A stretch of DNA of 64,000 nucleotides from Paenibacillus sp. HGH0039 (GTDB lineage Bacteria > Bacillota > Bacilli > Paenibacillales > NBRC-103111): positions 3,080,842 through 3,144,841 of the forward strand of contig NZ_KE150412.1 of assembly GCF_000411255.1 (NCBI RefSeq). The letters run 5' to 3'. Position 1 is the stretch's first letter. Every line of letters begins with the position of its first letter. Made by a program: the position numbers and the translations under genes. Under the pieces are notes generated by a model. That model ran no database searches and had not been told where the DNA came from. It saw only the letters and a list, made by a program, of their open reading frames with translations. Positions 12,129 to 37,671 of this stretch are shown piece by piece.

Positions 12129-12666
12129 GGGGATGTCCTCCTTTTGGTTTCTGGGCATGCAGAGAATCGAAGAAAGCGAAGGTCTGTTCCATAAGCTTAT
12201 CGGACACCGGTGTAGCGAGCGGTTTCTTCTGTTCGGTGTGGACCAGGGAGAACTGGTCCGTCATGCGTCCGAACACGCCGGTGGTCATAAGCAGGAACGT
12301 CGCCGCGGCTGCTATAGCGTAATGGGTCAAGGCCGTCCGTCTCGGGGAGCGGGCTTTCCGGTGTTTTTTCGCTTCCGTCCGGTCAAGGCTTTCTTCGGGT
12401 TCTTCCTGTTTCTGTGCAGCCATCGGAGCCGCTTCCTGTACAACCGGCAGGCTGCCGCTTCGGGCTAGAATTTGATCGATCATGCGTTCAGTATCGGCCT
12501 CATCCGGAAGGGGAAGAGCCGGTGACAAGAATTCCAGGCATTCCGTATATAGCTCCAGGCAAAGGTCACATTCATACAAGTGATCCTCCCAAAGGCCTCT
12601 CTGACGATCATCCGTAATTTCTCCGGCAATGTAAAGCTTCCATTCATCGCGGCTTCTATGACTCAT
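12118..12666 (-). CDS. Anti-sigma factor with zinc-binding ZAS motif
   Basis: This 182-residue protein should hold the upstream ECF sigma factor inactive at the membrane. The N-terminal domain carries the ZAS signature H29-x3-C33-x2-C36, followed by a flexible acidic linker, one membrane helix near residues 110-130 (IAAAATFLLMTTGVFG) and a short outer tail. Its ATG overlaps the sigma stop as ATGA, and its own end overlaps the next gene. Such tight coupling is usual for sigma/anti-sigma pairs. The signal it senses is not evident. Confidence 0.87.
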   Translation of the reverse strand: MSHRSRDEWKLYIAGEITDDRQRGLWEDHLYECDLCLELYTECLEFLSPALPLPDEADTERMIDQILARSGSLPVVQEAAPMAAQKQEEPEESLDRTEAKKHRKARSPRRTALTHYAIAAAATFLLMTTGVFGRMTDQFSLVHTEQKKPLATPVSDKLMEQTFAFFDSLHAQKPKGGHPLEP

Positions 12667-13187
12667 TCGAACTCTTCCTCCTTCCAGTGCTGCTTAATCC
12701 ACTGTTTTGCCCGGTATAGTTTGGATTTGATGGTCTGCACGGTGACTTCCTGCTCGTCGGCAATTTGCTGGTACGATTTATCTTCGTAGTAGAAGGCAAT
12801 AATGACATCTCTATAGTTTTCGGGAAGCTCCTCCAATTTGCGCATAACAAGCGCCTGAAGCTCTTTGCTTAACAGCGGATCTTCGGTATCGGACCCACTC
12901 AGGGAGGGAGGGGGCATTGCTTCTTCCATACCGTCGGTCGCTGTTTCCCGCTGGCGGTAGGCTTTGCGTTTGTAATCGATCGCTTTGTTGACGGCCACGC
13001 GGGAGATCCAAGCTTTCAAGCCTTTTACCTCGGTTTGGGGGAGGGAGGTATACATCTTGAGAAAGACTTCCTGCATGACGTCTTCCGCATCTTTGGGATG
13101 CCGGACGACCGAAAACACAATTTGAAACACGTAATTCCGGTAAGTCCGGACAACCTCACGAAAGGCTTCCTCATCTCCGGCAAGCAT
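12663..13187 (-). CDS. ECF RNA polymerase sigma factor
   Basis: A sigma-70 family factor with region 2 (residues about 5-70, including DAEDVMQEVFLKMY) and region 4 (about 115-170, with LPENYRDVIIAFYYEDKSYQ and a helix-turn-helix). The frame from the ATG at 13187 lacks the usual 8-12 residues before GDEEAF and has no ribosome site. Upstream in frame, an ATT codon at 13223 follows ggagaggggaggga at ideal spacing and would add ILTQQEELLVQG, matching the family. The true start may therefore be the rare ATT. An ECF-type promoter at 13254-13277 suggests it drives its own gene. Confidence 0.9.
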   Translation of the reverse strand: MLAGDEEAFREVVRTYRNYVFQIVFSVVRHPKDAEDVMQEVFLKMYTSLPQTEVKGLKAWISRVAVNKAIDYKRKAYRQRETATDGMEEAMPPPSLSGSDTEDPLLSKELQALVMRKLEELPENYRDVIIAFYYEDKSYQQIADEQEVTVQTIKSKLYRAKQWIKQHWKEEEFE

Positions 13188-13253
13188 GCCTTGGACAAGC
13201 AGTTCCTCTTGCTGCGTTAAAATGTCTTTCTCCCTCCCCTCTCCATCACTATA

Positions 13254-13277
13254 GACGAAACGATTTGATTCGAGTTC
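13254..13277 (-). promoter_or_regulatory. ECF-type promoter, probably autoregulatory
   Basis: On the minus strand GAAC (13277-13274) and CGTC (13257-13254) are separated by 16 bases. This is the AAC/CGTC arrangement and spacing of ECF promoters such as those of SigW, SigX and SigM. It lies about 30 bases before the sigma ribosome site. Confidence 0.65.
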
Positions 13278-13308
13278 TGCACTTCCGGTAAAAATATTTT
13301 TCCAGGTA

Positions 13309-13342
13309 CAAAAAAACCGCCATCCGGTCGAACCAAGGGCGG
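13309..13342 (-). terminator. Terminator of the ABC/sigma operon
   Basis: On the minus strand the CCGCC/GGCGG stem encloses an inner GGT-tcg-ACC helix and is followed by seven T. It ends the six-gene minus operon 13359-19473. Confidence 0.8.
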
Positions 13343-13358
13343 AATTTTATAAAAAATT

Positions 13359-14201
13359 TTACAATAGGCGCCGGGAGCGGATAAAGTACGCGTCCTCGGT
13401 TGTCAGCGGGACTTGGACAAACCCCGGTGCAGGGCATTCGCGGCTGAACACCCGCCATTCGATATGGTCTCCAACCAGCTTGCGGATCATCACGCAAGCC
13501 TCGTCGAAGGGGCAGGCATCAGCACGGGGAAGAATCCCCTGCCAAACACCGAGAGGAACTTGCCTCCAGGCTCCAGGCGTTCCGTAAAATTCCGGCTTGC
13601 CGGCGTTCAGCCATAGGAGCTGGTCGGCTTCCTGCCACTCGTTCAGCTCATGGGCCGCGATAAGCACGATACTGCCGCGGGCATGCCGGTACAAGAGGCG
13701 GATAACCGTTTTGCGCTCGATGGAATCCAGGTAGTTGAGAGGCTCATCCAACAGCAGATAACGGGGAGAGCCGAGCAGAGCCTGCCCGATTGCCAGCCGC
13801 TGCTTCATTCCTTGGGAAAGCGATCCGATCCGCTTTCGTTTGACATCCTCCAGATGCAGCTCGCGCATCAGCTGTTCTCCTTGAGAAGGATCGGCTCCTT
13901 TAAGAAGACACATGTAGTTCATCAGCCGGATGGGTGTCATGTCTTCATGAAGCTCCACATCAGTCGGCACATAACCGATCCGGCTCCGTATCTGGGGAAG
14001 CTGTTCCTTGACGGTCCCTTCCAGATAGCTGATTTCCCCTCCGTCGGGAAAATCAGCGGTAGCCAGCAGGCGGAGCAGAGTGGACTTGCCTGCTCCGTTT
14101 TTTCCGACGAGCAGAATCAGGCCGGGAGCTAGCGTCAGTTGATCTACGTGCAGCCGGATATGACCCTCGTAGAGACGGACGAGCTGATTAAGCCGGATCA
14201 T
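13359..14201 (-). CDS. ABC transporter ATP-binding protein
   Basis: A nucleotide-binding subunit of about 280 residues that would power the membrane protein encoded just upstream. It has Walker A GKNGAGKSTLL, signature SLSQGMKQRLAIGQ (LSQGM instead of the common LSGGQ), Walker B YLLLDEPLNYLD and the switch His in IAAHE. The last 70 residues after the ATPase core are an extra domain with two Cys in ECPAPG and DACPFDEAC contexts. Its ATG at 14201 overlaps the upstream stop as ATGA. An ATG at 14213 is also possible. It is the last gene of the operon. Confidence 0.87.
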   Translation of the reverse strand: MIRLNQLVRLYEGHIRLHVDQLTLAPGLILLVGKNGAGKSTLLRLLATADFPDGGEISYLEGTVKEQLPQIRSRIGYVPTDVELHEDMTPIRLMNYMCLLKGADPSQGEQLMRELHLEDVKRKRIGSLSQGMKQRLAIGQALLGSPRYLLLDEPLNYLDSIERKTVIRLLYRHARGSIVLIAAHELNEWQEADQLLWLNAGKPEFYGTPGAWRQVPLGVWQGILPRADACPFDEACVMIRKLVGDHIEWRVFSRECPAPGFVQVPLTTEDAYFIRSRRLL

Positions 14202-15034
14202 GCCGACCGCCATCCCTGCACGCTTGTCAGCCGCAGACTTTTCCGATAGGCGGATAGAAGGAAAAGAACACCCGCCGCGATAAGCACCGCCTGAAGAATC
14301 AGTGCCCGGTTCCAGTCCGGTCCGGTTAGTTCCCGGCGAAGCCACTCCTCCATGAACAGTTCTACACCCCAGCCTGTCAGAGCGGCCATTATAGCGGAGA
14401 GCATGCCGCGCTTCATCATAAAATATGCGGTTAACCCCGTGACGAGCAGAAGCGGAGCAATCCAGTCGAAAAGAAAAGGAAGCGTCATCCAGGACCTTGA
14501 ATAGCTCATGGTTGCAAACGTGTAGAGAGAGCCGATGAGGCCGAGCACCGCATTCGTAACGAGCAGAACGATTAAGCGGCTGAACATGAGCAGCGCCGGG
14601 GGATAAGGCGTGACGCTTTCGATCATGCGCATCCCTTCATTCCAGCTTCGGTACTGGTACAGAAAGCCGCAAACGAGCAGCAGCGGGAAAGCCAGCGAAT
14701 AAGACGAGCGGCCCGGCAAGGAGCCGGCTATGGTGTAAGGCGAGTTCAGCAGCAGCAGCATGGCAAAGAGCAGCAGGCTAAGCAGCCAGAACCACTTGTT
14801 GTACATAAAAAGCTGGTGGCGGCAAAGCTTCCACAGGGACGGCCGCAGGTCCGCCGAATGTTCAGGCCGGGTTGTACCCGGACTGTTCTCGCGTATGGCA
14901 TCGAAGTGGCTTTGAAGCCTGCCGAGCAGGTTCGCAGTATCTATGCGGTCAGGCGTTTTAACCAGGTATCCGTTCAGCAGGACAGCCGTATCTTTCTCCA
15001 GTTGGTCCAGCTCTTTGTCGTCAGGTTCATACAT
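14198..15034 (-). CDS. Membrane protein following an ECF sigma (possible anti-sigma/permease)
   Basis: A 278-residue protein with a cytosolic N-terminal region (about 75 residues, starting MYEPDDKELDQLEKD) and then six hydrophobic segments. Known sigY-type operons place a small negative regulator and membrane proteins after the sigma gene. This protein could merge an anti-sigma-like head with a permease body, which is an inference from position and topology only. It overlaps the sigma gene by 8 bases and the ABC ATPase gene by 4. The ribosome site aaggagggg lies just inside the sigma gene. Confidence 0.72.
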   Translation of the reverse strand: MYEPDDKELDQLEKDTAVLLNGYLVKTPDRIDTANLLGRLQSHFDAIRENSPGTTRPEHSADLRPSLWKLCRHQLFMYNKWFWLLSLLLFAMLLLLNSPYTIAGSLPGRSSYSLAFPLLLVCGFLYQYRSWNEGMRMIESVTPYPPALLMFSRLIVLLVTNAVLGLIGSLYTFATMSYSRSWMTLPFLFDWIAPLLLVTGLTAYFMMKRGMLSAIMAALTGWGVELFMEEWLRRELTGPDWNRALILQAVLIAAGVLFLLSAYRKSLRLTSVQGWRSA

Positions 15035-15644
15035 AAGGGGTCCCCTCCTTGGTCGGTTTGCCGCGATTTTCTTTCCTTCCGCCGCCGGTATCGGTTAAGC
15101 TCCCGGCTTTGGGGCCGAGGAGAGCTTTGAGTTTACGAAGGCCGCTGTAAAGGTGAGTCTTCGTCGTGCTGAGCGGGATTTGCAGAACTTCCGTAATTTC
15201 TTGAAGCTTCAGATCATGAAAGAAACGAAGAATGACAATTTCCTTCTGAACTTCAGGAAGGGAGCGGAGGGCTCCGATAATTTCTTTGCGAGCTTCCTGC
15301 CGCTCGTAAATTTCAACAACCGAAGGCTGGGTATCCTGAGCCTCGGGCGGTTCAGCCGTCAATTGCTGCTCGTTTCTGTAAGCTAGGCTCTTCCAGTAAT
15401 CCCGGCATAGATTTAAGGCTACCCGGTACATCCAGGGTCGGATGTGATCGGGAATTTTCTGTTGCTGCAGCTGCTTGAGCAGACGCACAAATACTTCCTG
15501 GACCAGATCTTCCGCCTTGCGGGGATCGTGCAGGGTCCGCTCGAGATAATGCTGAAGCGGCGCGTGATAGCGGTGAACGAAGGCCTCAAAAGCGGCCTGA
15601 TCGCCGCGGGCCATGGCTTGGGCCAGCTCTTCATCCGTAAGCAT
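15027..15644 (-). CDS. ECF RNA polymerase sigma factor (SigY-like operon context)
   Basis: About 205 residues with sigma region 2 (DPRKAEDLVQEVFVRLL) and region 4 (LPEVQKEIVILRFFHDLKLQ followed by the STTKTHLYSGLRKL helix-turn-helix). The ATG at 15644 is chosen because agaaaggaaa sits 6 bases before it and it gives the standard opening MLTDEELAQAMARGDQAAFE. A longer frame from 15725 would overlap the upstream gene and lacks a site. No classic ZAS anti-sigma is next to it. The downstream membrane protein may take that role. Confidence 0.88.
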   Translation of the reverse strand: MLTDEELAQAMARGDQAAFEAFVHRYHAPLQHYLERTLHDPRKAEDLVQEVFVRLLKQLQQQKIPDHIRPWMYRVALNLCRDYWKSLAYRNEQQLTAEPPEAQDTQPSVVEIYERQEARKEIIGALRSLPEVQKEIVILRFFHDLKLQEITEVLQIPLSTTKTHLYSGLRKLKALLGPKAGSLTDTGGGRKENRGKPTKEGTPYV

Positions 15645-15687
15645 CTGTCGTTTCCTTTCTCCGGTCACGTCTATGAGGCCGGCTATA

Positions 15688-16404
15688 TTATTCTTCTTCG
15701 GAGACAATCCAGCGGCTGCGGTCATGAACCGTATAGTTCAAGATTACGGTTAAAACGAGTGCAGCAGACAGCAGAACAAGGCGGTTCGGAAGAAAAAGAT
15801 CCGGGATCTCCTTAGACTGCTCCTGAATATGGACCGTATAAATGGTGAAGTAAGGAAGCCAGCTCCCGTGTGAAAGAATATCGAGCATCCACAGGGCGAG
15901 TCCTGCAAAAAGTCCGGCGTAGAGCTTCTTGACCGTAAGCATAACTGTAAGGGTAAGAACGGCGATAAACAGCAGAGCCGGCAGCATCTGGAGCAGAAGC
16001 GGCATGAAGCTGTGCAAGGTACGTATAGAAGACTTACCGGCAGGGCCGTAAGAATACACCAGCGTTGTTACGGCACCGAATTTCGCTTGGTAGGCCGTAA
16101 ACCAGGCAGCCTGATAACCTGTGCAGACGGCCAGCAGGATCAGTCCTTTACGGGCCGCCATCCCTGTCAGGGACTGGGGAAAGGTCGCGTAAATTTCCAT
16201 AGGCCCTCCGAGCTCCCGATGAAACAGCGCGGCACAAAGCATGACAACGAGCGGGTAGAAGGCAAGCTCCCCGTAAAACAATGCATTGCCCGGCTGCTCC
16301 GGATCCGAGCTCCAGATAGCACATCCGAGCATAAGTACATAAAGAAGCGGAGGCAAGCCCCACATGCTTTTAAATCCTCTGAGGTCCTGCAGCCATAGGC
16401 TCAC
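15688..16404 (-). CDS. Multi-pass membrane protein, probable ABC-2 permease subunit
   Basis: About 238 residues, with six predicted membrane helices and short loops, no cysteine-rich or catalytic motif. It fits a second permease half beside the larger permease encoded upstream and the ATPase at 18604-19473. The GTG at 16404 overlaps the upstream stop (GTGA), with aaggtg 8 bases before it. Starts at 16425 or 16437 are alternatives. The function is inferred from neighbours. Confidence 0.72.
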   Translation of the reverse strand: MSLWLQDLRGFKSMWGLPPLLYVLMLGCAIWSSDPEQPGNALFYGELAFYPLVVMLCAALFHRELGGPMEIYATFPQSLTGMAARKGLILLAVCTGYQAAWFTAYQAKFGAVTTLVYSYGPAGKSSIRTLHSFMPLLLQMLPALLFIAVLTLTVMLTVKKLYAGLFAGLALWMLDILSHGSWLPYFTIYTVHIQEQSKEIPDLFLPNRLVLLSAALVLTVILNYTVHDRSRWIVSEEE

Positions 16405-18611
16405 GATCCGAACACCTTTGCCCATTCCCGGTTCCAATCATCAAGGGTGACTACCGGATAGCGGAAAGGGGCGTCGGGAGCGCTAAGCCCTTTTTTATAA
16501 AAAGAGGCCAGCACTTTTTTCACTTCTTCCGTTTTGTCCGCATCCAACGCCTCACGGACTTGTAGGAGAATATGGTTCTTGATCTGTTGGCCGAGACCCC
16601 GGTCACCGGTCATTCGATCTTTCGGAAGAAACTGGTCCGAGAACTGAACGCTCCTGATTTGCTCCTCCGTAAGCTGAAGTCCGTCCCGATAATACAGATA
16701 TAAAAACGCGGCACGGATTTCCATGAAAATGGAAGGCTTGACGGTCTCGTCCGTGTTACCGTTCGCATCTTTGGAAACCTCAGCGTAACTGCTTTGGTAG
16801 GAGTCATCTCCGAACAGGAGAGCATAAGTGGTCCGAATACGCTGATAATCGTCCAGGTTGTGATTTCTGGATTCGTTGATATAATAGCTGCTTCCCGCAA
16901 CCGCCGATTGACGGCTGTCCGGAGAAATCAGATTCCCGTAAGACAGGTACACGATGTTACGCACGGCGCTTAGATTTGTCTGCAGAAGAGCTTCATAATA
17001 AGCTTTCATCCTCAACATATCTTTCCAAAAAAGGTCGGCTTCCAGCCGGTTGCCCGGAGTTGTTTGCAGCTTGAGACTGCCCTTGGGGTCACTGAACTGA
17101 ATAAGGTTTCCCGCTATGAAGGTCAGATGTTTTACACCCTTCTGCTCAAAATGCTGGATGCGCGCGGCACCTTGTTTTTCCGTAATAGAACCGTAGATGA
17201 GGTTGGAAAACCCTTTAAAAGTGACATCGAAATCGGCCGGCTGAGCCAGGGGTTGCGGTCCGCCGTAGAACAGCCCTTTTTTGCGCTCATCGGTAAGGTA
17301 GAGCGGTCCGTTGTTAGGTAAAGGATACCATGCTGCCGAATTGGGCAGGTAAAGATAAGGGTCCATGACGAAAGAAATAATCTGCTCACCCTGCTGCGGT
17401 CCGTATGTCCAATTGATTCCTTTGCTTTCATAGTTGAAGGTAAGCGTCTGGCTGCTTTTGGAGGAGTCAAAATGACGACTCTCGACGGAAACCAAATTGC
17501 CGTGGCGCGTAAACGATACAGGTTGATTATCGAGCAGCAATTGTTCCACGTGAAAATAATCATGCAGGGTAAATGAAACGTCGCCCTGGGGCAAATCCGC
17601 GGGCCGGAGCGACACTTCTACAGAGGCTCTGAGTCCATCCGAAGAAGCAGGGGCCAGCTCCATTTTGTAAGAAGAGACGGTAAACTGAGTAATCGCGCGC
17701 TGATTATAGACCGATTCTGTCGGTGCGTTCCGAAGTTGTTCCCGGTATGCCGCAAAATGCGGAGTCCAGAATCCCACATAGGTGTAATAAGAGCCCGCGG
17801 ACAAGACGGTAAAAAGAATCAGGGCGCCCGCCCATCTGGCGCGTGTTCCGCTCGGACGGACCCATTTCAGAATCGTAACGCAAACGGTAAGCAGGACCAG
17901 GGTGAAACTGAGTACAAACCATCTGGCGAGCCAAGTTTCCCGTTCTTTTATCCACGGTCCCCATGCTTCATTGGCGTAGAAGGAATCGAGCGTTATCCCG
18001 CTGAGATGGAAGGGCTTCAGTACCCGCAGCTCCAGAATGCCGAGACGTTCGATAATGAATTGATCGATAAAAAACGTGCCGAAAACCCACGCGCAAAAGC
18101 CGATCAGATACACGATGCGGTTGCGGATGGAGATGGCCAGAAGCATAGCCAAGGCCAGAGTAACCATATAGGACCATTCGTACTGGACTGCGAAAAAGGA
18201 AAGCTCCCGAAGCATGATAGGCCTGCCGATGCCGTAGTGAAGGGCAAAGCACACATACACGACTGCCATGGCCGCCGTAAACAAGGAAAGATACAAGAGC
18301 CCGGCCGCATATTTCACGCTGAAAAGGACCGCAGGTGAGACGGGAAGGCCCGCCGTCCATTCGTAGGCCGTTTTGGCGGTATCCCTGCGGATAAGCAGGA
18401 TGCCCAGCAGCATGGCCGCACCCAAAGTAAGCGTGTGCTTCACCTTATGAAAGTCATACACGTACAAATAAAGGTCCTGCGATACAGGAGGAGCGATTCC
18501 TGAGAGAGAGTAGACCATCCAGGCTCCGAACAGAACCGGGAGGACCAGAAGAACGGGATTGCTGCGCAGCAGCCGCAGTTCCAGCGAAAAAGCGCGCAGC
18601 CATCTATGCAC
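16401..18611 (-). CDS. ABC-2 type permease fused to a large peptidase-like outer domain
   Basis: About 736 residues. The N-terminal part (to about residue 270) has six or more membrane helices of ABC-2 permease style. The remaining 450 residues form a soluble domain whose strands (for example MDPYLYLPNSAAWYPLP) recall the beta domain of M1 aminopeptidase-like proteins found fused to such permeases. I see no HExxH zinc motif, so peptidase activity is unlikely. The GTG at 18611 is preceded by ggaggtg and overlaps the ATPase gene by 8 bases, so ATPase and permease are translationally coupled. Confidence 0.78.
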   Translation of the reverse strand: MHRWLRAFSLELRLLRSNPVLLVLPVLFGAWMVYSLSGIAPPVSQDLYLYVYDFHKVKHTLTLGAAMLLGILLIRRDTAKTAYEWTAGLPVSPAVLFSVKYAAGLLYLSLFTAAMAVVYVCFALHYGIGRPIMLRELSFFAVQYEWSYMVTLALAMLLAISIRNRIVYLIGFCAWVFGTFFIDQFIIERLGILELRVLKPFHLSGITLDSFYANEAWGPWIKERETWLARWFVLSFTLVLLTVCVTILKWVRPSGTRARWAGALILFTVLSAGSYYTYVGFWTPHFAAYREQLRNAPTESVYNQRAITQFTVSSYKMELAPASSDGLRASVEVSLRPADLPQGDVSFTLHDYFHVEQLLLDNQPVSFTRHGNLVSVESRHFDSSKSSQTLTFNYESKGINWTYGPQQGEQIISFVMDPYLYLPNSAAWYPLPNNGPLYLTDERKKGLFYGGPQPLAQPADFDVTFKGFSNLIYGSITEKQGAARIQHFEQKGVKHLTFIAGNLIQFSDPKGSLKLQTTPGNRLEADLFWKDMLRMKAYYEALLQTNLSAVRNIVYLSYGNLISPDSRQSAVAGSSYYINESRNHNLDDYQRIRTTYALLFGDDSYQSSYAEVSKDANGNTDETVKPSIFMEIRAAFLYLYYRDGLQLTEEQIRSVQFSDQFLPKDRMTGDRGLGQQIKNHILLQVREALDADKTEEVKKVLASFYKKGLSAPDAPFRYPVVTLDDWNREWAKVFGS
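17542..17557. promoter_or_regulatory. Weak parS-like site inside the permease gene
   Basis: TGTTCCACGTGAAAAT matches 14 of 16 positions of the Bacillus parS consensus (TGTTNCACGTGAAACA). It lies in coding sequence, as many true parS sites do. Confidence 0.35.
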
Positions 18612-19473
18612 GCCGGTCACCTCCGATCAACGCGAGGTAGCCGTCCTCCAGCGTGGGCTTCACGGCTGCGGCATTCTCCGCGGGCGGGGTCGCCGACACG
18701 ATGCGGCAGAGCATGCCGTGGTCGGTCCGGCGGGCGGTTACGACCTCATGCGGCTCATAGGCCGCAAATTCCCGCTCGCTGAGCTCCGCTTCCCAGACCA
18801 GACCCTCGGCGCACTCCTGCAGGCCGGCGAGACTTCCCGCGAAGGCGACGCGTCCACGGTGCAGCACCGCTACCCGGCTGCAGCTGCTCTCGATGTCCGC
18901 GACGATATGCGTGGACAGCAGTACCGTCCGGCTCAGGCTGGAGCGGTTCAGGAGATTGCGGAAGCGGACCCTCTCCTCGGGATCCAGCCCCGCCGTGGGC
19001 TCATCTACGATGAGCACCCTGGGGTCCCCGAGGAGAGCCTGCGCAATCCCCAGACGCTGTTTCATGCCGCCGGAGAAGGTTTTGATCTTGGCGCGCGCCT
19101 TGTCGGTCAGATTGACCTGCTGCAGAATCTCGCCGATCTGGGATTTGCGCTCACGGGCGCTTTTGATGCCTTTCATGACGGCCACATAGTCCAGAAATTC
19201 GTAGGCTGTGAGCTGCGGGTAGAGATGAAAATACTGGGGGAGATAGCCCGTGATTTTGCGGATATGCTCCGCATCCGAAAGCAGGTTCAAGCCTCCCACG
19301 CGAACAGTACCTTCCGTAGGCTCAAGCAGAGTGGACAAAATGCGCATGAGCGTTGTTTTGCCGGCGCCGTTCGGCCCGAGCAGGCCGAACATCTCTTGTC
19401 CGATCTCCAGGTTCACCCCGGTGAGAGCCGGGTGATTTTTATATTGTTTAGATAAATTGCGGATCTCAATCAT
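18604..19473 (-). CDS. ABC transporter ATP-binding protein
   Basis: A 289-residue ATPase, first gene of the minus-strand operon. Motifs are Walker A LLGPNGAGKTTLMRIL, signature FSGGMKQRLGIAQALL, Walker B VLIVDEPTAGLDPEE and switch His in LLSTHIV. The architecture (DrrA/CcmA-like core with a C-terminal regulatory extension of about 70 residues) fits exporters of peptides, lipids or drugs. The ATG is preceded by aaaggaag. Its partner permeases are the next two genes, overlapping or adjacent. What is exported cannot be read from sequence. Confidence 0.93.
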   Translation of the reverse strand: MIEIRNLSKQYKNHPALTGVNLEIGQEMFGLLGPNGAGKTTLMRILSTLLEPTEGTVRVGGLNLLSDAEHIRKITGYLPQYFHLYPQLTAYEFLDYVAVMKGIKSARERKSQIGEILQQVNLTDKARAKIKTFSGGMKQRLGIAQALLGDPRVLIVDEPTAGLDPEERVRFRNLLNRSSLSRTVLLSTHIVADIESSCSRVAVLHRGRVAFAGSLAGLQECAEGLVWEAELSEREFAAYEPHEVVTARRTDHGMLCRIVSATPPAENAAAVKPTLEDGYLALIGGDRRA

Positions 19474-26100: not shown

Positions 26101-26135
26101 AAAATCCCCCGGCCAAGTAAGGCACGGGGGATTTT
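26101..26135. terminator. Bidirectional terminator between convergent genes
   Basis: AAAATCCCCCG (26101-26111) pairs with CGGGGGATTTT (26125-26135). The A and T ends let it serve both the GGDEF-EAL gene (+) and the five-gene biosynthetic operon (-). Confidence 0.85.
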
Positions 26136-26181: not shown

Positions 26182-27411
26182 TTAAAGCATAACCTCTGCC
26201 GGCTTTACGATGTAAAGCGGCTTGGTGCTGACCTGGCGCTCAACAAGCAGGCGGCGGTCGAAAAGGGCTCCGGGCTCGCCTGGTTCCACAACAACCGGAA
26301 GCTGAAGCCGTTCGGTGAGAATGGACGCAAAACGCGTGAGCACTCCGGCGTCTTTGCCCTGCCATTCGAACGTGAAGTGAAGCCCGTCCTGCGCAGGCGT
26401 TACTTTCCAGGCATCCGGCAGATCCGGCAGCGAATACACGGCGTCGTGAATGTCCGCCGGTTCCAGTATCCGGCCGGCAACCTCCAGCCTGTCCAGCTGC
26501 CGTCCGTAATGGGTCAGCCTGCGTCCGCTTCTCCCGCACGGACAGTTGACTTTTTCGAGGGAGATCACGTCCCCGTTCAAATAACGGAGAAGGGGGGATC
26601 CCTCGTGGGTCAGCGTTGTGATCACGGCAAGACCTTTGCCCCCGCCGGGCTCAACCGCCGCTGACAGGTCTTCTTGCAGCACTTCCACGAAGAAATCGTC
26701 TTCGGCCACATGCAGAATGCCGTGCTCGCACATCGCGGCTATGTTGGCCGTCTCCGTAGAGCCGTACAAGTTGTAAACCGGCACGCCCCAAAGCTCTTCA
26801 ATCTTCTTTCGGCGCGACTCGGCCAGAAGTTCTCCCGCGACGCCGATGGCCCGGAGGTGGGGGAAATCTTCCCGGCAGCCGAGATCGTGCAGCCGTGCGG
26901 TTGCCGCCAATATTTCCATCTCGCGGGGAAGGCCCGTCATCACCGTTACATTCAACTTGCGCAGCAGTTCAATGATGCGCGGATATGGTGTCATCGTATT
27001 CCGGCTGCTGGCCGGAAGCACGCATGCGCCCGCCTGCCGCGCGGCCTGTTGAACCAGGTGAGCCGGCAGGGACAGCGCGTAAGGGAACCGGTTAAGCAGC
27101 CGGTCCCCGGGTCTAAGGCGCAGGCCGGAATCGCCGATCTGACGGCCTCCCGCTTCCAGATCCCGGACTGTGTACCAAGCCGAAGCGGGCAGGCCGGTCG
27201 TTCCGAACGTTTCGAAGTACTGGCAGACTTCCTCCGGCGGCACCGCCAGCAGATTCCAGGGACCTGCTTCACGGAGGTGGTCTTTGGTCGTAAGCGGCAG
27301 CTCGCCGATGCGAGAAATATCTCTTATTTCCCGTTCCTCTGCCGAAAGGTGTTTTCTATAGAAAGGTGATTGTTCCAATCGCTCCATAAGGGCGGTAAAT
27401 TTCACGGACAC
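26182..27411 (-). CDS. PaaK-like adenylate-forming ligase (second of the cluster)
   Basis: 409 residues of the phenylacetate-CoA ligase branch of the ANL superfamily, which activates carboxylic acids as acyl-AMP. The P-loop-like motif is degenerate (FETFGTTGLPASAW, where homologues have a Ser/Thr/Gly-rich loop ending in GKP). The A5-type motif is NLYGSTETANIAA, the A7-like region is LLRYLNGDVISLE, and a CPCGRSGRR zinc-like motif follows. The C-terminal lid is shorter than in the sister ligase encoded at 28785-30134. The GTG start follows aaggggg by 8 bases. It is the last gene of the operon. It may make an ester or thioester from the aromatic acid the operon is predicted to produce, or transfer it on. 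Confidence 0.83.
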   Translation of the reverse strand: MSVKFTALMERLEQSPFYRKHLSAEEREIRDISRIGELPLTTKDHLREAGPWNLLAVPPEEVCQYFETFGTTGLPASAWYTVRDLEAGGRQIGDSGLRLRPGDRLLNRFPYALSLPAHLVQQAARQAGACVLPASSRNTMTPYPRIIELLRKLNVTVMTGLPREMEILAATARLHDLGCREDFPHLRAIGVAGELLAESRRKKIEELWGVPVYNLYGSTETANIAAMCEHGILHVAEDDFFVEVLQEDLSAAVEPGGGKGLAVITTLTHEGSPLLRYLNGDVISLEKVNCPCGRSGRRLTHYGRQLDRLEVAGRILEPADIHDAVYSLPDLPDAWKVTPAQDGLHFTFEWQGKDAGVLTRFASILTERLQLPVVVEPGEPGALFDRRLLVERQVSTKPLYIVKPAEVML

Positions 27412-27476
27412 AGGATGTTCCCCCTTAAATGGGTATGGGCTTGCAGATCCGAAGAATCTGGTTTTAGAGACGACGC

Positions 27477-28766
27477 TTACTGTTCGATAATCAGCTCGTC
27501 GACTTTCACGCCGACATGTCTTCCGGGGTCCATTGTATAGCCCAGCACCTGGTCGCCCGGCTTTAATGTCGTAATGTTGATCGGCTGGCCCTCCGTGCCG
27601 AATACGCGCACGTGCCAGTCCTCTTGCATAATGACATTAAGAGTCGTTCCATCTTCCGCCCGGGCTTCGATATAAAGCAGAGGGCGCCGTTCGATTTTCA
27701 CGCGGCCGACCGAAACGCGTCTCGCTTTGCCGGATGTGCTGACGACGAGGACTTCCATTCCCGATCGCAGATCGGACAAGTACCAGGTCCGGTTATCCGG
27801 CGCCAGCACATAGGTGTGCAGGCTGCCCGCGTTGATGCGGAAAGGTCTCGTCGGCATATACGGAAGCGGATGTGTCTCGCTGCAGGCAAGAATGCCCCCG
27901 CAGGAAAAGGAACCGAGCAGCACACCCTCGTCGAGGCCGAGATAGCTCGTCAGGTCGATACAGGCGCGATCGCCCATGCCGACATGCTCCGTCCGTACAA
28001 TGGTCAGCTTCTGAAGCGGCTGACCGCCTTTTTGGCCCGTTGAAGTAATTACTTCGCCGACCGCATACACTTGGCCGAGATCGCCCGACGCGATCAGGAC
28101 GCCATCCGCCCCGCATTCGAGTACGCCGAAGACGACTTTCGCTTCGATATCGTCGCGTACTTTCATGACCACTTCGGTACCGAAATTCTGGGCGTCCGCC
28201 AGAACGATTTCAAGCGGAATTTTTGTATCGTCGCGGAATTCGACAATTAGCAGAGACACCTCGTGGGTCATGGCTACGGCGAGCTGCAAAGACTCAGGGT
28301 CCGTTACATTCACACTCGTGCCGATTTTACAGGTAATGGCTTCACGGTTGCGTCTGAACCAACTGCTGCCGATCACCGACGGTTCCAAAATAATGATGTT
28401 GTAGGCTTCATTTAAAGCCGCCAGCTTATCGGGAGAAGGGGTGCCCTCGACATAAGTGATTTTATCCAAAGTCGGAGGGAGCTGCTTCACCTGCTGCTCG
28501 TTGGCTACGACGCCGGTGAATTTCTGGTGAGGCAGAGCTTGTACGATAGCGCCCCATTGCTCCGGAGCCGTTAAAGAACTGATATCGAACCACGCGTATT
28601 TGCTGCGCACGGGCGCGATAGGTTTATTTTTGGCCTGATTAAGGCTGGAAACCGGAGTGGCTGTACCGCTTGCTTTCGCTTCGGCCGGTTTTTCGGTTGG
28701 CTGGGTGGTGGAATCGTTAGGTGCCTTCGGATTAATATCAGGCGTTTCTTTCAGCGCTTTACTCAT
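27477..28766 (-). CDS. Type II 3-dehydroquinate synthase (AroB'/GriH-like)
   Basis: 429 residues matching the archaeal-type, NAD-dependent 3-dehydroquinate synthase family, unrelated in sequence to normal AroB. Diagnostic stretches are EHVGMGDRACIDLTSYL, LLGSFSCGGILACSETHPLP and RPFRINAGSLHTYV, followed by a beta-rich C-terminal domain. In methanogens the enzyme acts after ADH synthase on the way to aromatic amino acids. In Streptomyces griseus the relative GriH makes 3-amino-4-hydroxybenzoate. The first 55 residues are a Pro/Thr/Lys-rich low-complexity extension not found in the archaeal enzymes. The matching aldolase lies three genes upstream. Ribosome site gaggagat. Confidence 0.9.
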   Translation of the reverse strand: MSKALKETPDINPKAPNDSTTQPTEKPAEAKASGTATPVSSLNQAKNKPIAPVRSKYAWFDISSLTAPEQWGAIVQALPHQKFTGVVANEQQVKQLPPTLDKITYVEGTPSPDKLAALNEAYNIIILEPSVIGSSWFRRNREAITCKIGTSVNVTDPESLQLAVAMTHEVSLLIVEFRDDTKIPLEIVLADAQNFGTEVVMKVRDDIEAKVVFGVLECGADGVLIASGDLGQVYAVGEVITSTGQKGGQPLQKLTIVRTEHVGMGDRACIDLTSYLGLDEGVLLGSFSCGGILACSETHPLPYMPTRPFRINAGSLHTYVLAPDNRTWYLSDLRSGMEVLVVSTSGKARRVSVGRVKIERRPLLYIEARAEDGTTLNVIMQEDWHVRVFGTEGQPINITTLKPGDQVLGYTMDPGRHVGVKVDELIIEQ

Positions 28767-28784
28767 TTCGCAGATCTCCTCTTG

Positions 28785-30134
28785 TTATAGTCGAATAACC
28801 CGGCGGGCTTTTCCCGCGTCTCGCTCCACGTAATCCACGACTTGAACGTCGCAGGATTGCTGGATGCTCGCTTCGATACGTAGCTTTATCTCCGTTAATA
28901 GCTCCGCCCGGTCTACGCTTGAATCGGAAGCTTCGACGAGTATGGAGAGCTCCCCGTTTTCAACGATAAATTGGTACCAGTTTCCTGTTCCGCCGATTTG
29001 CAGGAGATGCTGTTCCAGATACAGGGGAGAAAAATTCCCGCTGTTAAGGGCGAGCTGATCGCCCATACGTCCTCTCAGCTGCAAACGGCGCAGACGGCAG
29101 CCGCAAGGGCAGGGACCTTCCTCAATGCAGCCGAGATCTCCGGTTTTGTACCGGATTATGGGCATGCCGTCGCGCATCAGGGTAGTGAGAACGACTTCGC
29201 CGACGGTGCCGGGAGCTTGGGGCTCCCCCGTAACAGGATGAACGATTTCGGTATAGATATGGCCTTCTGCCAAATGGTAACCTTGGTGCTCCAGGCATTC
29301 GATCCCGATCAGACCTACCTCAAGCGACCCGTACCAGGTTGTCACCGGTGTATTCCAGATCCGTTCGATCCGTTCGCGAAGAGCGGGTGAAGCGCCTTCA
29401 CCGGTCAAAAACAAATGCTGCAAGTTGAAATCCCGATGAAGGTCCATTCCCAGTTTCTGCGCATGTTCAGCCAGGGTCACGGCGTAGGAAGGAGCAATAA
29501 TCAAGGTTTGCATATCCCAGGCCAGCATGCATTCAAGAGCCTTATCTGGGTGAGAATAAGCTCCCCCTTTGCCGACAGGCAGTACGCAGCAGTCCTGCAT
29601 ATATTGGAACACCCGGTGGAATGAAAGCCCGGACGAGCTCATTTCGTAGGGTAAGGCGTTTCCGACTACGGTATTTCGCGTGTTCTGCATAAGGGATGGG
29701 TAGCGGGGGGCCGTATCCAGCCGATAAAGATCATTCAAAGTATGGCCGATAAAGATCGGCTTGCCTCCGGTTGTGCCGGTCGAAGTATGGATATGAGCCA
29801 GATCAGGCGAGCAAATGATGCAGCGCGGATCATTGCGCAAGTCTTCCTTTGTCAGGAAAGGCAGCTGGGCAAATAAAGCCGGATTGGATGCTTCTTCGGG
29901 AGTCAGACCAGTGATATCCATACGCTGTTTGTAAAACTCGTTGGTTTCATACACAAATTGAAGTAAACTGCGTAAGGCCCTCCGGTGATAAGCATCCACT
30001 TCCGCCTGGCTCAGGTTCTCTACCGACATTCCGCGCTCGGTCAGGCTGTTAAGCCACCGGACGTGCGGCTCGAACCTGTCCGCCGCTTTTTGTCCGGACA
30101 TCAATTCCATTTGGCTTCTGGCTGTTACGGCCAC
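28785..30134 (-). CDS. PaaK-like adenylate-forming ligase (first of the cluster)
   Basis: 449 residues, a full-length phenylacetate-CoA-ligase-type enzyme. It has the phosphate loop STGTTGGKPIFIGH, the aromatic-substrate region YGSLEVGLIG, RYKTGDLG, a CPCGCRLRRLQLRGR zinc-binding-like motif and a C-terminal lid ending in GKARRVIRL. It should activate an aromatic acid with ATP. The GTG start at 30134 follows aaggaggg by 7 bases. It lies 27 bases after the amidohydrolase gene and 18 bases before the dehydroquinate-synthase-like gene. In nataxazole biosynthesis an acyl-AMP/CoA ligase and an amidohydrolase together form the benzoxazole; the pairing here is similar. Confidence 0.9.
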   Translation of the reverse strand: MAVTARSQMELMSGQKAADRFEPHVRWLNSLTERGMSVENLSQAEVDAYHRRALRSLLQFVYETNEFYKQRMDITGLTPEEASNPALFAQLPFLTKEDLRNDPRCIICSPDLAHIHTSTGTTGGKPIFIGHTLNDLYRLDTAPRYPSLMQNTRNTVVGNALPYEMSSSGLSFHRVFQYMQDCCVLPVGKGGAYSHPDKALECMLAWDMQTLIIAPSYAVTLAEHAQKLGMDLHRDFNLQHLFLTGEGASPALRERIERIWNTPVTTWYGSLEVGLIGIECLEHQGYHLAEGHIYTEIVHPVTGEPQAPGTVGEVVLTTLMRDGMPIIRYKTGDLGCIEEGPCPCGCRLRRLQLRGRMGDQLALNSGNFSPLYLEQHLLQIGGTGNWYQFIVENGELSILVEASDSSVDRAELLTEIKLRIEASIQQSCDVQVVDYVERDAGKARRVIRL

Positions 30135-30161
30135 GTGCTTTCCCTCCTTATACGGCGAATA

Positions 30162-30923
30162 TTATAGTCCAAGCAAGCGTGAAATGGTATGATGCAAAAT
30201 CGTTTCCTTATCCGCATCGGAGATGGAGAGACGGTCGATTTTGACCTTTTCTACGAATGGGTCCGACAAGGGAAACTCGGAACCGAACATAAGTTTATCC
30301 GGCCCCGCCAGTTTAACAGCGGTCTGAATCGCCAGCGGGTTGCCCGTAGACGTTTCCAGGTAAACATTTTCCCTTCGTGCCGCTAATTCTATGGCATCTA
30401 TATCGAGCGGGCCGAATCCCATATGGCCGATAACGAAGTTAGTACCGGGAAAAGCTTCGGCGAGAGAACCCAGTGCGGCCGTGTTTGCGGTTGCTTGAAT
30501 GACTAGGTGCGTATAGAAGGGAATTCCATAGTCCCCGCACAGGGCGGCAAGCTCTTTAACGACGTCTCCCATAAGAGAAATCTGATGGACAAGAGGTGAC
30601 AGCTTGAGGCCTTTGAAGCCGTCTCGATAGGCCTTCTCCAGGGAAGCCAGAGCCGCCGGAGCCCCGTCGTTAGGATTAATGCAGCAGATTCCGTAAAATT
30701 TGTCCGGGTATTCACGGATAATATCCAGCACGGTATCGTTGGGCGGATCCGTCAGGATCGGCTTTTCCTCTCCGGTGATGTACCGGGTCATGCGCCTAAC
30801 GTCCAGCATGCCGCCCGGCACCAGGACGGCTTTGTCTATACCCGCTGATTTCATATCGTCCAGCAGCCGTTCGGGGCTGCTGTAATCTTGTCTCGATATG
30901 TGGGCGTGGCCATCAATGATCAT
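30162..30923 (-). CDS. Amidohydrolase-family metalloenzyme
   Basis: A 253-residue TIM-barrel enzyme of the amidohydro_2 group. Metal ligands are visible as H6-A-H8 in DGHAHI, a Lys/Leu-rich strand GFKGLKLSPL, His in FYTHLVI and His in VIGHMGFGP. The position usually read as GSDYP or GTDFP is GSEFPLSDP here, so the catalytic Asp is replaced by Glu or shifted. The ATG overlaps the aldolase stop (ATGA). In this gene setting it is a candidate for the cyclising step of benzoxazole formation rather than hydrolysis; that is inference. Confidence 0.87.
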   Translation of the reverse strand: MIIDGHAHISRQDYSSPERLLDDMKSAGIDKAVLVPGGMLDVRRMTRYITGEEKPILTDPPNDTVLDIIREYPDKFYGICCINPNDGAPAALASLEKAYRDGFKGLKLSPLVHQISLMGDVVKELAALCGDYGIPFYTHLVIQATANTAALGSLAEAFPGTNFVIGHMGFGPLDIDAIELAARRENVYLETSTGNPLAIQTAVKLAGPDKLMFGSEFPLSDPFVEKVKIDRLSISDADKETILHHTISRLLGL

Positions 30924-31804
30924 GCGTATTCCTCCCAGGGGTCAAATTGTACGGCGGCAATTCCGGGGTCGGTCTGCTTCGTGATAAGCGGCATGCGGGA
31001 GGAGGCGGCTAAGTAGGTCTCGTAAGCCTCCTCCGCGCTGCAGTCCTTATGAACAAGATCTCCGAGCGCACGGCACATATCATCGGGGCGGGAATCCTCA
31101 AACAGATTCCGGCCTATGCACAGACCTTTGCCCCCGGCATCGAGCATTTCCCTGATCCCACGGAAAAAAGCCAGTTTGTCGCCGACCGAGCTTCCTCCGG
31201 CCATCAGTACGGGGATGTTAAAAGCGGCTACGGCTTCAGCCGCTCTCTGCGGAGTAACCGGCGTCTGGACTTTGACAAGATCCGCGCCCAATTCTCCGGC
31301 AATACGGACCGCATGGGCTATTTTGTTGGTCGCCGCCGCTCCCCCCGAAAGATCTTCTTCAGGAACGTTCATCATTGCCAGGACCGGAAGGCCCCAAGCA
31401 TAAGCCTCATCACAGACAAGACCGAGGTCGCGCAGCATCTCATGTTCCTGGGGGACGCCCAGGTTAATATGTACGGAAAGGCCGATAGCTCCGATTTGCA
31501 GGCCGTGACGGACAGTCGATACGATTTGCTTATTGGACATATCCGGTGACATTTGAGTGGACGCCGAGAGATGGAGAATAAATTCGGTTCCCCACGGCGA
31601 TTCACTGCTTTCAAGGGCACGACGGATGGCTCCCTTATGAGCAATGATAGCCTGCAGTCGGAACCGGTTGGCCATACGAAGCAAAGCCGGCATGGAGGAG
31701 ATTCCGTTAAGAGGTCCGTAGGTGGTGCCGTGATCAACCGGAAGCATGAAAGCGCGGCCGGATTTCGGATGAAAAATCTTTGAAAGACGCAGCAATTTAC
31801 TCAT
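30920..31804 (-). CDS. Class I aldolase of the ADH-synthase/GriI family
   Basis: About 294 residues of the DeoC/FbaB-type aldolases. The opening KLLRLSKIFHPKSGRAFMLP, followed by VDHGTTYGPLNGI, closely parallels archaeal 2-amino-3,7-dideoxy-D-threo-hept-6-ulosonate synthase. The Schiff-base lysine is Lys178 in LGADLVKVQTP, and the phosphate site is in MAGGSSVGD and GKGLCIGRNLF. Relatives condense aspartate semialdehyde with a sugar phosphate (or DHAP in GriI). The ATG at 31804 follows aaaggagat; the longer in-frame extension to 31975 lacks a site and is not family-like. It is the first gene of the five-gene operon. Confidence 0.9.
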   Translation of the reverse strand: MSKLLRLSKIFHPKSGRAFMLPVDHGTTYGPLNGISSMPALLRMANRFRLQAIIAHKGAIRRALESSESPWGTEFILHLSASTQMSPDMSNKQIVSTVRHGLQIGAIGLSVHINLGVPQEHEMLRDLGLVCDEAYAWGLPVLAMMNVPEEDLSGGAAATNKIAHAVRIAGELGADLVKVQTPVTPQRAAEAVAAFNIPVLMAGGSSVGDKLAFFRGIREMLDAGGKGLCIGRNLFEDSRPDDMCRALGDLVHKDCSAEEAYETYLAASSRMPLITKQTDPGIAAVQFDPWEEYA

Positions 31805-32480
31805 ACATAGATCTCCTTTCCGATGAACATGCAAAATAAGAAAGAACCCCATTCTCTGAACTGTACGAAAATGGAAGTGATACCGGACAGGCCGAAAAGC
31901 GCAAGCTAAAAGATTGTTGCTGAATGTTATGAATGGTCTTGAAGTGAGGATCTCAAAAAATCGTTCTTTTGTCACAGTACGAATAATCCGGAAGATAGGG
32001 GTGAAAAGAGGAAGTAGGCCAATAGATTCGAAATGGATGAAATGTAAATAGATACATAAAGATCCATAACCATCTCTTCAACTATGATTTTACTTTTTTA
32101 GACAAAAAAAGTAAATTAAAATTTCGTTAAATTGCTCAAAAATCTTTAAATTAAGTTTTAGTATTTAATTTTGGCCTGGCTGTTTTTAAATGGCGAAAGG
32201 AAATGATGCGAATGATGCATGAATTCGGAAACCCTGATTGGAGTAAGGGGACGAAGGGGGGAGAACGGCAATAAAGGATCAATTTCGCTATATAAGAAGC
32301 GGAGGGAAGCGAAACGGGAGGGGAATATATTTCTAATCTGAGTTAAAATTTGTAATAAATTGTAAAAATAATTTGTCGGTTGGAGGGAGAAAAGAAAAAC
32401 CGGCTCTACCAAAGAGAAATGCTGCCCAAATTAACCCCGCAAGAAAACGCGCAATCAATGCCGAGTTTAATCTATGCCGT
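31805..32480. other. Gene-free, AT-rich region upstream of the aromatic cluster
   Basis: About 675 bases with no supportable gene. It should hold the promoter of the minus-strand biosynthetic operon; I see no near-consensus one. It includes an A/T-rich inverted repeat at 32089-32115. A plus-strand frame of about 20 codons near 32206-32272 (ending WSKGTKGGERQ) follows a weak aaagga but cannot be supported. The stretch from 32090 to 32180 is markedly richer in A and T than the genes around it. Confidence 0.5.
32089..32115. repeat. A/T-rich inverted repeat upstream of the aromatic operon
   Basis: TTTACTTTTTT and AAAAAAGTAAA are perfect 11-base arms around a five-base loop. This could be an operator or a weak terminator. 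Confidence 0.6.
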
Positions 32481-36444: not shown

Positions 36445-37671
36445 CTACAGTTTTTCGCTTTTCAAATCGAGATATAGGCTGACTTTCTGGTCCATATCTT
36501 TCAGATCGATGTTGCCAATCTCGGAAATCCGTTTCAGCCGATAGTTTAGCGTGTTGGTATGAACGTGGAGAGCATCGGCGGCGTCTTTGACGTTGCTGTC
36601 CTGCAGAAGAAATATTTCCAGTGTATGCAGGAGATTGCCGTTATGCTCCCGGTCGTACTGCCGCAGTTTAAGCAAGGACGGGTTGGTGTGGGCGTGAATC
36701 CGGTTTTCCTCGGCCATAAGAGGAAGAAAGCGATAGAAACCGAGATCCCGGTAATGGACAAACCGTTTCGTTTCCTGGGGAAACTGCCGCTTCACCTGAA
36801 GAACGGAGAGAGCTTCCCGGTAGCTTTTTTCGACAAGGCCGTAGTCTTCATAGATATTGCCGATAGCGGTTTGTCCGGGGGAGACACCGAACCGGTCTTT
36901 CATCTGCTGGGCAAAGAGCCGCAGGAACTCCGAGGAATCCGCCGCAAACTGATTACGGGAAGAAGAGGTCCCGAGCAGAACAAGCTGGGTGCGGTCGACA
37001 ATATGAAGGGCGATCCGGATCCGCTGGGTCGTACTGATAAGGTACCGGATCTGCTGAGCCCTCTGCTCGCTGATATCCGAATCGAATTCGACGACCATGA
37101 CCTGGAAGCAGTCCATGAGAGGAATGCCGAGCTTATCGGACTTTTGCCGGACGGCGTCGCCCGAGGATATATGGCCGGTGAGCAGCTGCCAGAAGAAGTC
37201 CTCGAATCCTTCCTGCTCCTTGCGTTTCTGCTGCTGCAGCTGCAGCAGCTTGGTCTTGGCCGCGCGGGAGGCGTGCTTAAGCTGTAGGAAATCGGCTTCT
37301 TCCAATAAGCGTGCATCCTCCAGCACCCAAATGTAGCCCAGCACCTCGCGGTTGTTGCGGATGGAAATGGCGATGCGGCGGCCGAGTTTGACGTCGTCCA
37401 GCGCTTTGATGGGCACAGGATCCTCGCTTTTCATCAACTGCTGAATAAACCCCTCGCGCCAGAGGCTGGCGATAACCTTCTCGGGCACGCGGCGGCCGAC
37501 GATCGTGGCGATCCGTACGGGGTCGGTCTGAGCTTCGTGCGTGCTGTACGCGATCAGCCGATGGTTGGCGTCTTCTATGGTGATGGCGCAGCCGAGCACC
37601 TCGCTGATGGTATCCGCCAGTGCTTCCAAACTTTCAAAACTTCGGTCGAACGGATTTAATTCGTTGCTCAT
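36445..37671 (-). CDS. adeR: PucR-family regulator, probable activator of ald (AdeR-like)
   Basis: 408 residues with an N-terminal sensory region (about 1-150, GAF-like, with ITIEDANHRLIAYST), a middle CdaR GGDEF-like domain (about 160-300) and a C-terminal PucR helix-turn-helix (about 335-400: VKDAADALHVHTNTLNYRLKR). This matches B. subtilis AdeR (YukF), which activates alanine dehydrogenase and is encoded beside ald. About 137 bases separate it from ald, so ald probably has its own promoter in this gap. Confidence 0.85.
   Translation of the reverse strand: MSNELNPFDRSFESLEALADTISEVLGCAITIEDANHRLIAYSTHEAQTDPVRIATIVGRRVPEKVIASLWREGFIQQLMKSEDPVPIKALDDVKLGRRIAISIRNNREVLGYIWVLEDARLLEEADFLQLKHASRAAKTKLLQLQQQKRKEQEGFEDFFWQLLTGHISSGDAVRQKSDKLGIPLMDCFQVMVVEFDSDISEQRAQQIRYLISTTQRIRIALHIVDRTQLVLLGTSSSRNQFAADSSEFLRLFAQQMKDRFGVSPGQTAIGNIYEDYGLVEKSYREALSVLQVKRQFPQETKRFVHYRDLGFYRFLPLMAEENRIHAHTNPSLLKLRQYDREHNGNLLHTLEIFLLQDSNVKDAADALHVHTNTLNYRLKRISEIGNIDLKDMDQKVSLYLDLKSEKL

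Follow-up and report, generated by a model that had tools for sequence, protein, structure and literature searches.

A five-gene operon of Paenibacillus sp. HGH0039 as a probable closoxazole-type benzoxazole biosynthetic cluster

The window analysed here is a stretch of 64,000 nucleotides (nt) from Paenibacillus sp. HGH0039 (contig NZ_KE150412.1, positions 3,080,842 to 3,144,841), in which the first-pass annotation had pointed out a five-gene operon on the minus strand at 26182-31804, with a possible benzoxazole pathway. The five open reading frames (ORFs) were all present and intact, and Pfam and NCBIfam placed their products in the families that had been claimed. In the order of transcription, they are:

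30920..31804, minus strand, ClxE-like aldolase (DeoC/ADH-synthase/GriI type), first gene, ATG at 31804; PF01791 DeoC, 102 bits
30162..30923, minus strand, ClxD-like amidohydrolase of 253 amino acids (aa), condensing role proposed; PF04909 Amidohydro_2, 117 bits
28785..30134, minus strand, second PaaK-like ligase; PF14535, 27.5 bits; PF00501, 24.7 bits, under the cut-off of 29.9
27477..28766, minus strand, ClxB/GriH-like type II dehydroquinate synthase (DHQS-II); PF01959 DHQS, 332 bits
26182..27411, minus strand, ClxA/PfxC-like adenosine monophosphate (AMP) ligase, last gene, GTG start; PF00501, 66 bits

The gene junctions are tight. The aldolase and amidohydrolase genes overlap by 4 nt, and the gaps that follow are of 27, 18 and 65 nt.

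This gene content matches, gene for gene, the clxA-E cluster of Clostridium cavendishii DSM 21758 and the pfxA-E cluster of Pyxidicoccus fallax DSM 14698, both likened here by their description in PMC12118335. In the closoxazole pathway, ClxE and ClxB make 3-amino-4-hydroxybenzoate (3,4-AHBA), ClxA couples two units, ClxD cyclises and ClxC adds a third unit (PMC12118335). In P. fallax, pfxA is ClxC-like, pfxB codes for the amidohydrolase, and pfxC, pfxD and pfxE are ClxA-, ClxB- and ClxE-like, respectively; in vitro work on this system demonstrated ligation, cyclisation and the attachment of a third unit, and gave evidence for an ester as the amidohydrolase substrate (PMC12118335). The window operon is quite probably a closoxazole-type (clxABCDE) biosynthetic cluster, closer to the closoxazole than to the nataxazole type. 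If the clx letters follow gene order, its transcription order is E-D-C-B-A, whereas the gene order of pfx is another one. Two Lachnospiraceae-type loci (L010, L124) display ligase A, DHQS-II, ligase C, amidohydrolase and aldolase, that is, the order A-B-C-D-E. A Nannocystis locus (L013), used as a stand-in for pfx, groups the five types in the gene order reported for P. fallax, and its amidohydrolase and aldolase are 41% and 27% identical to those of the window; several Bacilli also cluster the five types.

By reference to these characterised relatives, the aldolase and DHQS-II would convert aspartate semialdehyde and dihydroxyacetone phosphate into 3,4-AHBA. The ClxA-type ligase would adenylate one 3,4-AHBA and couple it to a second one, probably first as an ester, and the small metal-dependent amidohydrolase would turn this dimer into a 2-arylbenzoxazole carboxylic acid. 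The second ligase would then activate the benzoxazole acid and add a third aryl amine. Our best guess for the product, made by analogy, is closoxazole A or a close relative. The earlier proposal of an aminohydroxybenzoate formed by aldolase and DHQS-II, with closure by ligase and amidohydrolase as in closoxazole, was supported by gene content and by the residue comparisons given below. As regards its suggestion of dimerisation or cyclisation, the presence of two ligases points to a third unit being added, and not to dimerisation alone.

The best PDB match of the last ligase was 9s3l (E 6e-72), followed by AjiA1 (5e-53) and NatL2 (about 3e-50). Since residues 226 and 140 agree with PMC12519233, entry 9s3l is taken to be the ClxA structure presented there. 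Residues S118, P120, Y219, T222, N226, D281 and H301 of ClxA, among them contacts to the nucleotide and to 3,4-AHBA, are the same in the window ligase, while M198 and Y218 are replaced by Leu and K140 by Ser. Furthermore, the C-terminal Lys397 of the window ligase aligns with K418 of NatL2, of which the counterpart in ClxA is K393 (PMC12519233). In ClxA, N226 makes a contact to the para-hydroxyl of 3,4-AHBA (PMC12519233).

For the second ligase, the closest PDB chains are PaaK ligases. In both trees, it groups with the ligase that follows the amidohydrolase gene in L007, L008, L009 (in one tree), L112 and L115, with a support of 100/99, and all rows of this clade adjoin an amidohydrolase. In the other of the two trees, a second marked clade contains the Bacilli ligases termed 'before' and 'third', the only C-type ligase of P. 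solani and ligases from amidohydrolase-free loci. At four (119, 186, 192 and 271) of the six columns that separate the groups, the window clade agrees with the Lachnospiraceae/Nannocystis-type ligases and not with the other Bacilli ones. Because of this agreement, the second ligase is proposed to be ClxC/PfxA-like and to add the third aryl unit, an assignment that the trees do not settle. The idea that it is an odd paralogue, and that the Bacilli 'before' ligase is the ClxC orthologue, was weakened by the common residues and by the trees. The number of ligases per Bacilli cluster is two in the window genus and P. solani, three in L007 and L115, and four in L008, L009 and L112.

The AlphaFold model of the amidohydrolase is a single barrel of 253 residues (predicted local distance difference test (pLDDT) 85.6, from 13 sequences). 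The solved folds nearest to it are 3cjp and then resorcylate-type decarboxylases and ACMSD. Five metal-site candidates, H6, H8, H139, H167 and E216, are present in all 18 aligned rows, which stand for the window, 11 loci, L112-L116 and L124 (there are no 3,4-AHBA genes in L113, and the L011 row is truncated by the contig edge); the comparison is thus one with relatives in clx-type loci and not with ClxD itself. The residue at position 216 is Glu in 18 of the 18 rows of the window's amidohydrolase type versus Asp in 22 of the 22 other relatives aligned, these being drawn from 51 remote loci. The alignment leaves out L003, L005 and L012, which are near-copies or partial.

In nataxazole biosynthesis, NatL2 uses 3-hydroxyanthranilate, and NatAM has two domains and a chain traced as far as residue 494; its zinc is bound by H75, H77 and H253, with Asp345 2.7 Å away, and H290 acts as proton donor (PMC7204872). 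The logic of a ligase and an amidohydrolase is common to both systems, and the window's last ligase is homologous to NatL2. By motif order, H6, H8, H139, H167 and E216 would correspond to the NatAM metal-site residues, with Glu in the window motif that matches the one of Asp345 in NatAM. If this assignment holds, a second amidohydrolase branch may have been recruited for benzoxazole closure, with a carboxylate swap at the metal site. Both nataxazole and closoxazole had been named as precedents. The closoxazole one was retained; membership of the nataxazole type was rejected, the window amidohydrolase being a 253-aa single barrel versus a two-domain NatAM of about 494 residues and the last ligase being closest to 9s3l.

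The aldolase matched the MJ0400 structure 2qjg with an E value of 3e-43, and its best NCBIfam models are ADH synthases, with scores below the cut-offs (223 of 241; 206 of 299). We take D33, Y153 and K184 of MJ0400 to be catalytic residues. Two of them have counterparts in the window aldolase, Asp24 (D33) and Lys178 (K184), and this Asp and Lys are kept in all aligned rows (L003 and L005 were left out of the alignment), so that the active-site residues looked for are there in part.

The DHQS-II, the only PF01959 match in the genome, passes NCBIfam NF002625 with 388.5 against a cut-off of 375. Leaving the start Met aside, 51 positions are identical in all 22 DHQS-II sequences aligned, Streptomyces ones included. 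By analogy, this enzyme is proposed to be the 3,4-AHBA synthase. Its residues 1-54 form an extra Ala/Pro/Thr-rich N-terminal tail, the length of which varies between species of the genus: the protein has 429 aa in the window and 428-477 in the genus, versus 423 in L013 and 367-385 in the remaining clx loci. The model obtained is of low confidence (pLDDT 71.3, predicted template modelling score 0.47), with a pLDDT of about 33 in the tail, which is probably disordered.

An aldolase/DHQS-II pair is also found in the Streptomyces 3,4-AHBA systems GriI/GriH and BagB/BagC, with which the window was compared through Streptomyces plasmid pairs. The window proteins scored below the cut-offs of both dedicated models (BagC_FevH, 320 bits for a cut-off of 750; BagB_FevI, 152 bits for a cut-off of 500). 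Clusters of the grixazone/bagremycin type contain an o-aminophenol oxidase, a copper chaperone and a flavin adenine dinucleotide (FAD)-dependent oxygenase beside the 3,4-AHBA pair (PMC6692506), whereas no o-aminophenol oxidase or copper chaperone was detected among the five operon genes and the ten neighbouring ORFs scanned (10986-37671, with 12118-16437 left out).

Several observations weigh against a closoxazole-type cluster. In the last ligase, N226 is weak evidence: it was found in 11 of 17 clx-locus ligases; L007 and five Nannocystis-type ones lack it, even though 3,4-AHBA is the unit used by P. fallax, and four of four ligases from loci without 3,4-AHBA or amidohydrolase genes have it. 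Those four ligases are 49-54% identical to that of the window, versus at most 48% for the clx-locus ligases outside the genus (P. solani, 48%), and the nearest tree path out of the genus leads to ligases of amidohydrolase-free loci. The second ligase falls outside the Lachnospiraceae/Nannocystis clade, being its sister at 85/85 in one tree and without a resolved position in the other. The aldolase has Asn146 at the position of Y153 in MJ0400. Finally, no exporter or resistance gene adjoining the operon was found among the ORFs scanned. Given the distribution of N226 and the closer amidohydrolase-free relatives, the last ligase alone therefore does not prove the pathway, and the case for a closoxazole-type pathway is carried by the five genes together.

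The alternative that survives best is that the main product is a linear aryl amide or ester oligomer, or else incorporates an additional unit derived from an outside acid such as 4-aminobenzoate; we consider this unlikely. The K140A variant of ClxA makes longer oligoamides (PMC12519233) and the window ligase has Ser at this position, PfxC and ClxA accept other acids (PMC12118335, PMC12519233), and related two-ligase loci without an amidohydrolase exist. However, Ser at the K140 position is common among the clx-locus ligases (12 of 17, including the Nannocystis one; 13 with L112), and the amidohydrolase, whose metal site is intact, shows at least 70% identity throughout the genus.

An alternative that we rank lower is that a benzoxazole is made from another first precursor. 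In this case, the Asn-bearing Bacilli aldolase would run another aldol reaction, and the aminohydroxybenzoate or its substitution would differ from 3,4-AHBA. All nine Bacilli-branch aldolases (window, L002, L004, L006-L009, L112 and L115) have Asn at the position of Tyr153, versus Tyr in MJ0400, in the three Streptomyces plasmid aldolases and in the seven other clx-type rows, Lachnospiraceae-type relatives included; moreover, both experimentally studied pathways appear, judging by their relatives, to belong to other branches. Against such a precursor stand the conservation of the aldolase Asp and Lys, the 51 positions that the DHQS-II has in common with all 21 others and, without being decisive, the para-hydroxyl contact N226 of the ligase. 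A broader idea is that the Bacilli constitute a separate closoxazole branch, with a re-tooled aldolase and lineage-specific second ligases, in which a family of undescribed benzoxazole oligomers owes its length and linkage to the number and type of ligases; the window's operon would be its minimal two-ligase form, under a dedicated palindromic operator. We put this forward tentatively, as a proposal more doubtful than the closoxazole-type assignment itself, and no experiment on these Bacilli-branch features was found in the literature searched.

The remaining possibility, in which the aldolase/DHQS-II pair serves aromatic amino-acid synthesis as an archaeal-style shikimate entry next to unrelated catabolic genes, has the NCBIfam names of both enzymes on its side and was rejected as very improbable, in view of two AroB-type loci in the genome, the lack of a detected DHQS-II in 99 of 104 genomes of the family, and the fact that the pair also clusters with ligase and amidohydrolase genes outside the family, a myxobacterium included. 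The two AroB-type loci (PF01761) lie elsewhere in the genome; one of them scores under the aroB cut-off and has other gene surroundings. With these candidates for another shikimate entry, the lack of which the first-pass annotation had taken as a possible refutation, the pair is not needed for aromatic amino acids. The AroB-like cyclase below the cut-off (236 of 305 bits; L068:98-3322, in C1 of the same genome near 219160) adjoins a class-III aminotransferase-like gene and another gene without a family match. This gene group presumably resembles an aminocyclitol cluster.

The five proteins of the operon are 94-98% identical to those of Paenibacillus chitinolyticus NBRC 15660. Of 104 genomes in the GTDB family, 5 contained a DHQS-II (PF01959), and the count is again 5 for the 71 with at least 90% completeness and at most 5% contamination. 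All five belong to the same genus, one of 22, and among the genomes listed every one shown as the same genus matched. The gene-neighbourhood survey that had been proposed revealed the five genes arranged as in the window, between the same flanking genes, in four further species of the genus (L002-L005: P. chitinolyticus, UNC499MF, FJAT-26967 and P. lutrae). For the two species at a greater distance, identity to the window is 69-81% for the operon proteins and 67-77% for the flanking ones, which points to vertical inheritance. Since the operon is found with the same flanks in all five genomes shown as this genus, it is probably kept by selection.

Beyond the genus, 392 genomes drawn from the order included 8 with an amidohydrolase match of at least 224 bits, the five of the genus among them, and 18 more contained looser relatives (93-111 bits). 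In the class, 4 of 398 genomes, the window's own included, reached at least 224 bits. The counts of ClxD-like genes, in which the starting genome is included, were 1 of 29 in Nannocystaceae and 2 of 200 in the family of L010; the result for Clostridiaceae (0 of 206) came from a survey without a positive control and is uninformative. Clusters with these gene types were seen in P. solani, Mesobacillus, Sporosarcina, Neobacillus, Nannocystis, a Lachnospiraceae genome and several others. In two expanded Bacilli clusters, L007 and L008, an ABC-2 transporter and tetratricopeptide repeat (TPR) proteins are encoded alongside; the window operon has neither next to it.

Upstream of the aldolase gene, a conserved site was found:

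32089..32115, minus strand, putative operator, perfect inverted repeat with 11-bp arms and a 5-nt loop, over the -35 and -10 elements of a sigma-70-type promoter-like match

The palindrome, TTTACTTTTTT-TGTCT-AAAAAAGTAAA at 32115-32089, lies about 285 bases upstream of the gene. It is invariant in five species, the neighbouring DNA having diverged, and each of the five genomes contains one exact copy. A wider regulon was not apparent: with up to three mismatches allowed, a search of the five genomes gave two more sites only, both in G061. A perfect repeat of this length occurred in 1 of 1000 first-order Markov shuffles of the upstream 500 bp. The palindrome coincides with a -35 box TTTACT, a 17-nt spacer and a -10 box TAAAAT (to 32087). 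Such promoter-like matches are no commoner than in shuffled sequences (5 versus 4.7 expected), and the weight of the site therefore rests on its conservation. On this basis, the palindrome is likely to be an operator. The operon would be transcribed from one promoter, with its core covered by the operator and with a regulator encoded elsewhere than nearby; the transcript leader would measure roughly 275 nt. No RNA leader or riboswitch was reported at the operon by Rfam at the gathering threshold, and the predicted folding of 371 nt that include the leader was not better than that of shuffled sequences (z 0.33). In the upstream 500 bp of 13 clx loci outside the genus, taken from the most upstream start codon, 11 were without a perfect repeat with arms of at least 8; L007 shows a short perfect repeat and L008 a long unrelated hairpin.

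At its other end, the operon is followed by a second repeat:

26101..26135, no strand assigned, terminator-like perfect inverted repeat after the last gene, 11-nt arms AAAATCCCCCG/CGGGGGATTTT, 13 nt apart

This element separates the operon from a convergent GGDEF/EAL gene, beyond which lies, on the opposite strand, a gene for an FAD-dependent oxidoreductase (PF12831, 21724-23724); a tadA-like gene flanks the operon on the other side. The nearest ABC ATPase found (18604-19473) is past three plus-strand genes. Among the ORFs scanned, the nearest regulator-like gene is of the PucR type (36445-37671), past alanine racemase and alanine dehydrogenase genes. The claim that no polyketide synthase (PKS), nonribosomal peptide synthetase (NRPS), exporter or dedicated regulator adjoins the operon was borne out for the ten neighbouring ORFs, but has to be qualified by the conserved operator-like site that precedes the operon.

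Relatives of the ligases were also observed in other gene contexts. Four loci of the order, L152, L153, L154 and L155 (genomes G011, G309, G205 and G123), are of a second type, with adjoining LigC-type and LigA-type ligases, the latter 49-54% identical to that of the window, and without an amidohydrolase, aldolase or DHQS-II match within the 14-15 kb read. The L152 ligases adjoin a DAHP synthase with a chorismate mutase domain, of which a 75% identical homologue is found in L155, which suggests that an aryl ester or amide may be made from chorismate-derived acids. The LigA-type ORFs of L154, L155 and L112 have 577-591 aa, with a C-terminal extension that is TPR-like by eye. In L113 (7077-18253), two divergent PaaK-like ligases occur with a ClxD-type amidohydrolase that retains the Glu but has Asp in place of H113, in the absence of 3,4-AHBA genes, and the surroundings contain acyl-CoA ligase-like, luciferase-like, tRNA-synthetase-like and ABC transporter genes. 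This locus possibly represents a different benzoxazole-type pathway.

The kind of pathway proposed for the window is already known, having been studied in a Clostridium and in a myxobacterium, and the Paenibacillus cluster would be a further member. According to PMC12118335, the 2022 closoxazole discovery paper surveyed related clusters; a search of the open-licence literature, in which that discovery paper is not included, gave no report of a closoxazole or benzoxazole cluster from Paenibacillus. The benzoxazole structure type occurs in approved drugs (PMC12118335). If the Glu-for-Asp signature is common to ClxD and PfxB, it would provide a simple sequence test separating condensing, ring-forming amidohydrolases of this type from other relatives. 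New benzoxazole chemistry could be approached through the Tyr-to-Asn change of the aldolase and through the variable number of ligases, both of which can be tested. For Paenibacillus, a complete benzoxazole pathway without PKS or NRPS, present in every examined genome of one genus, would make both the product and its role testable.

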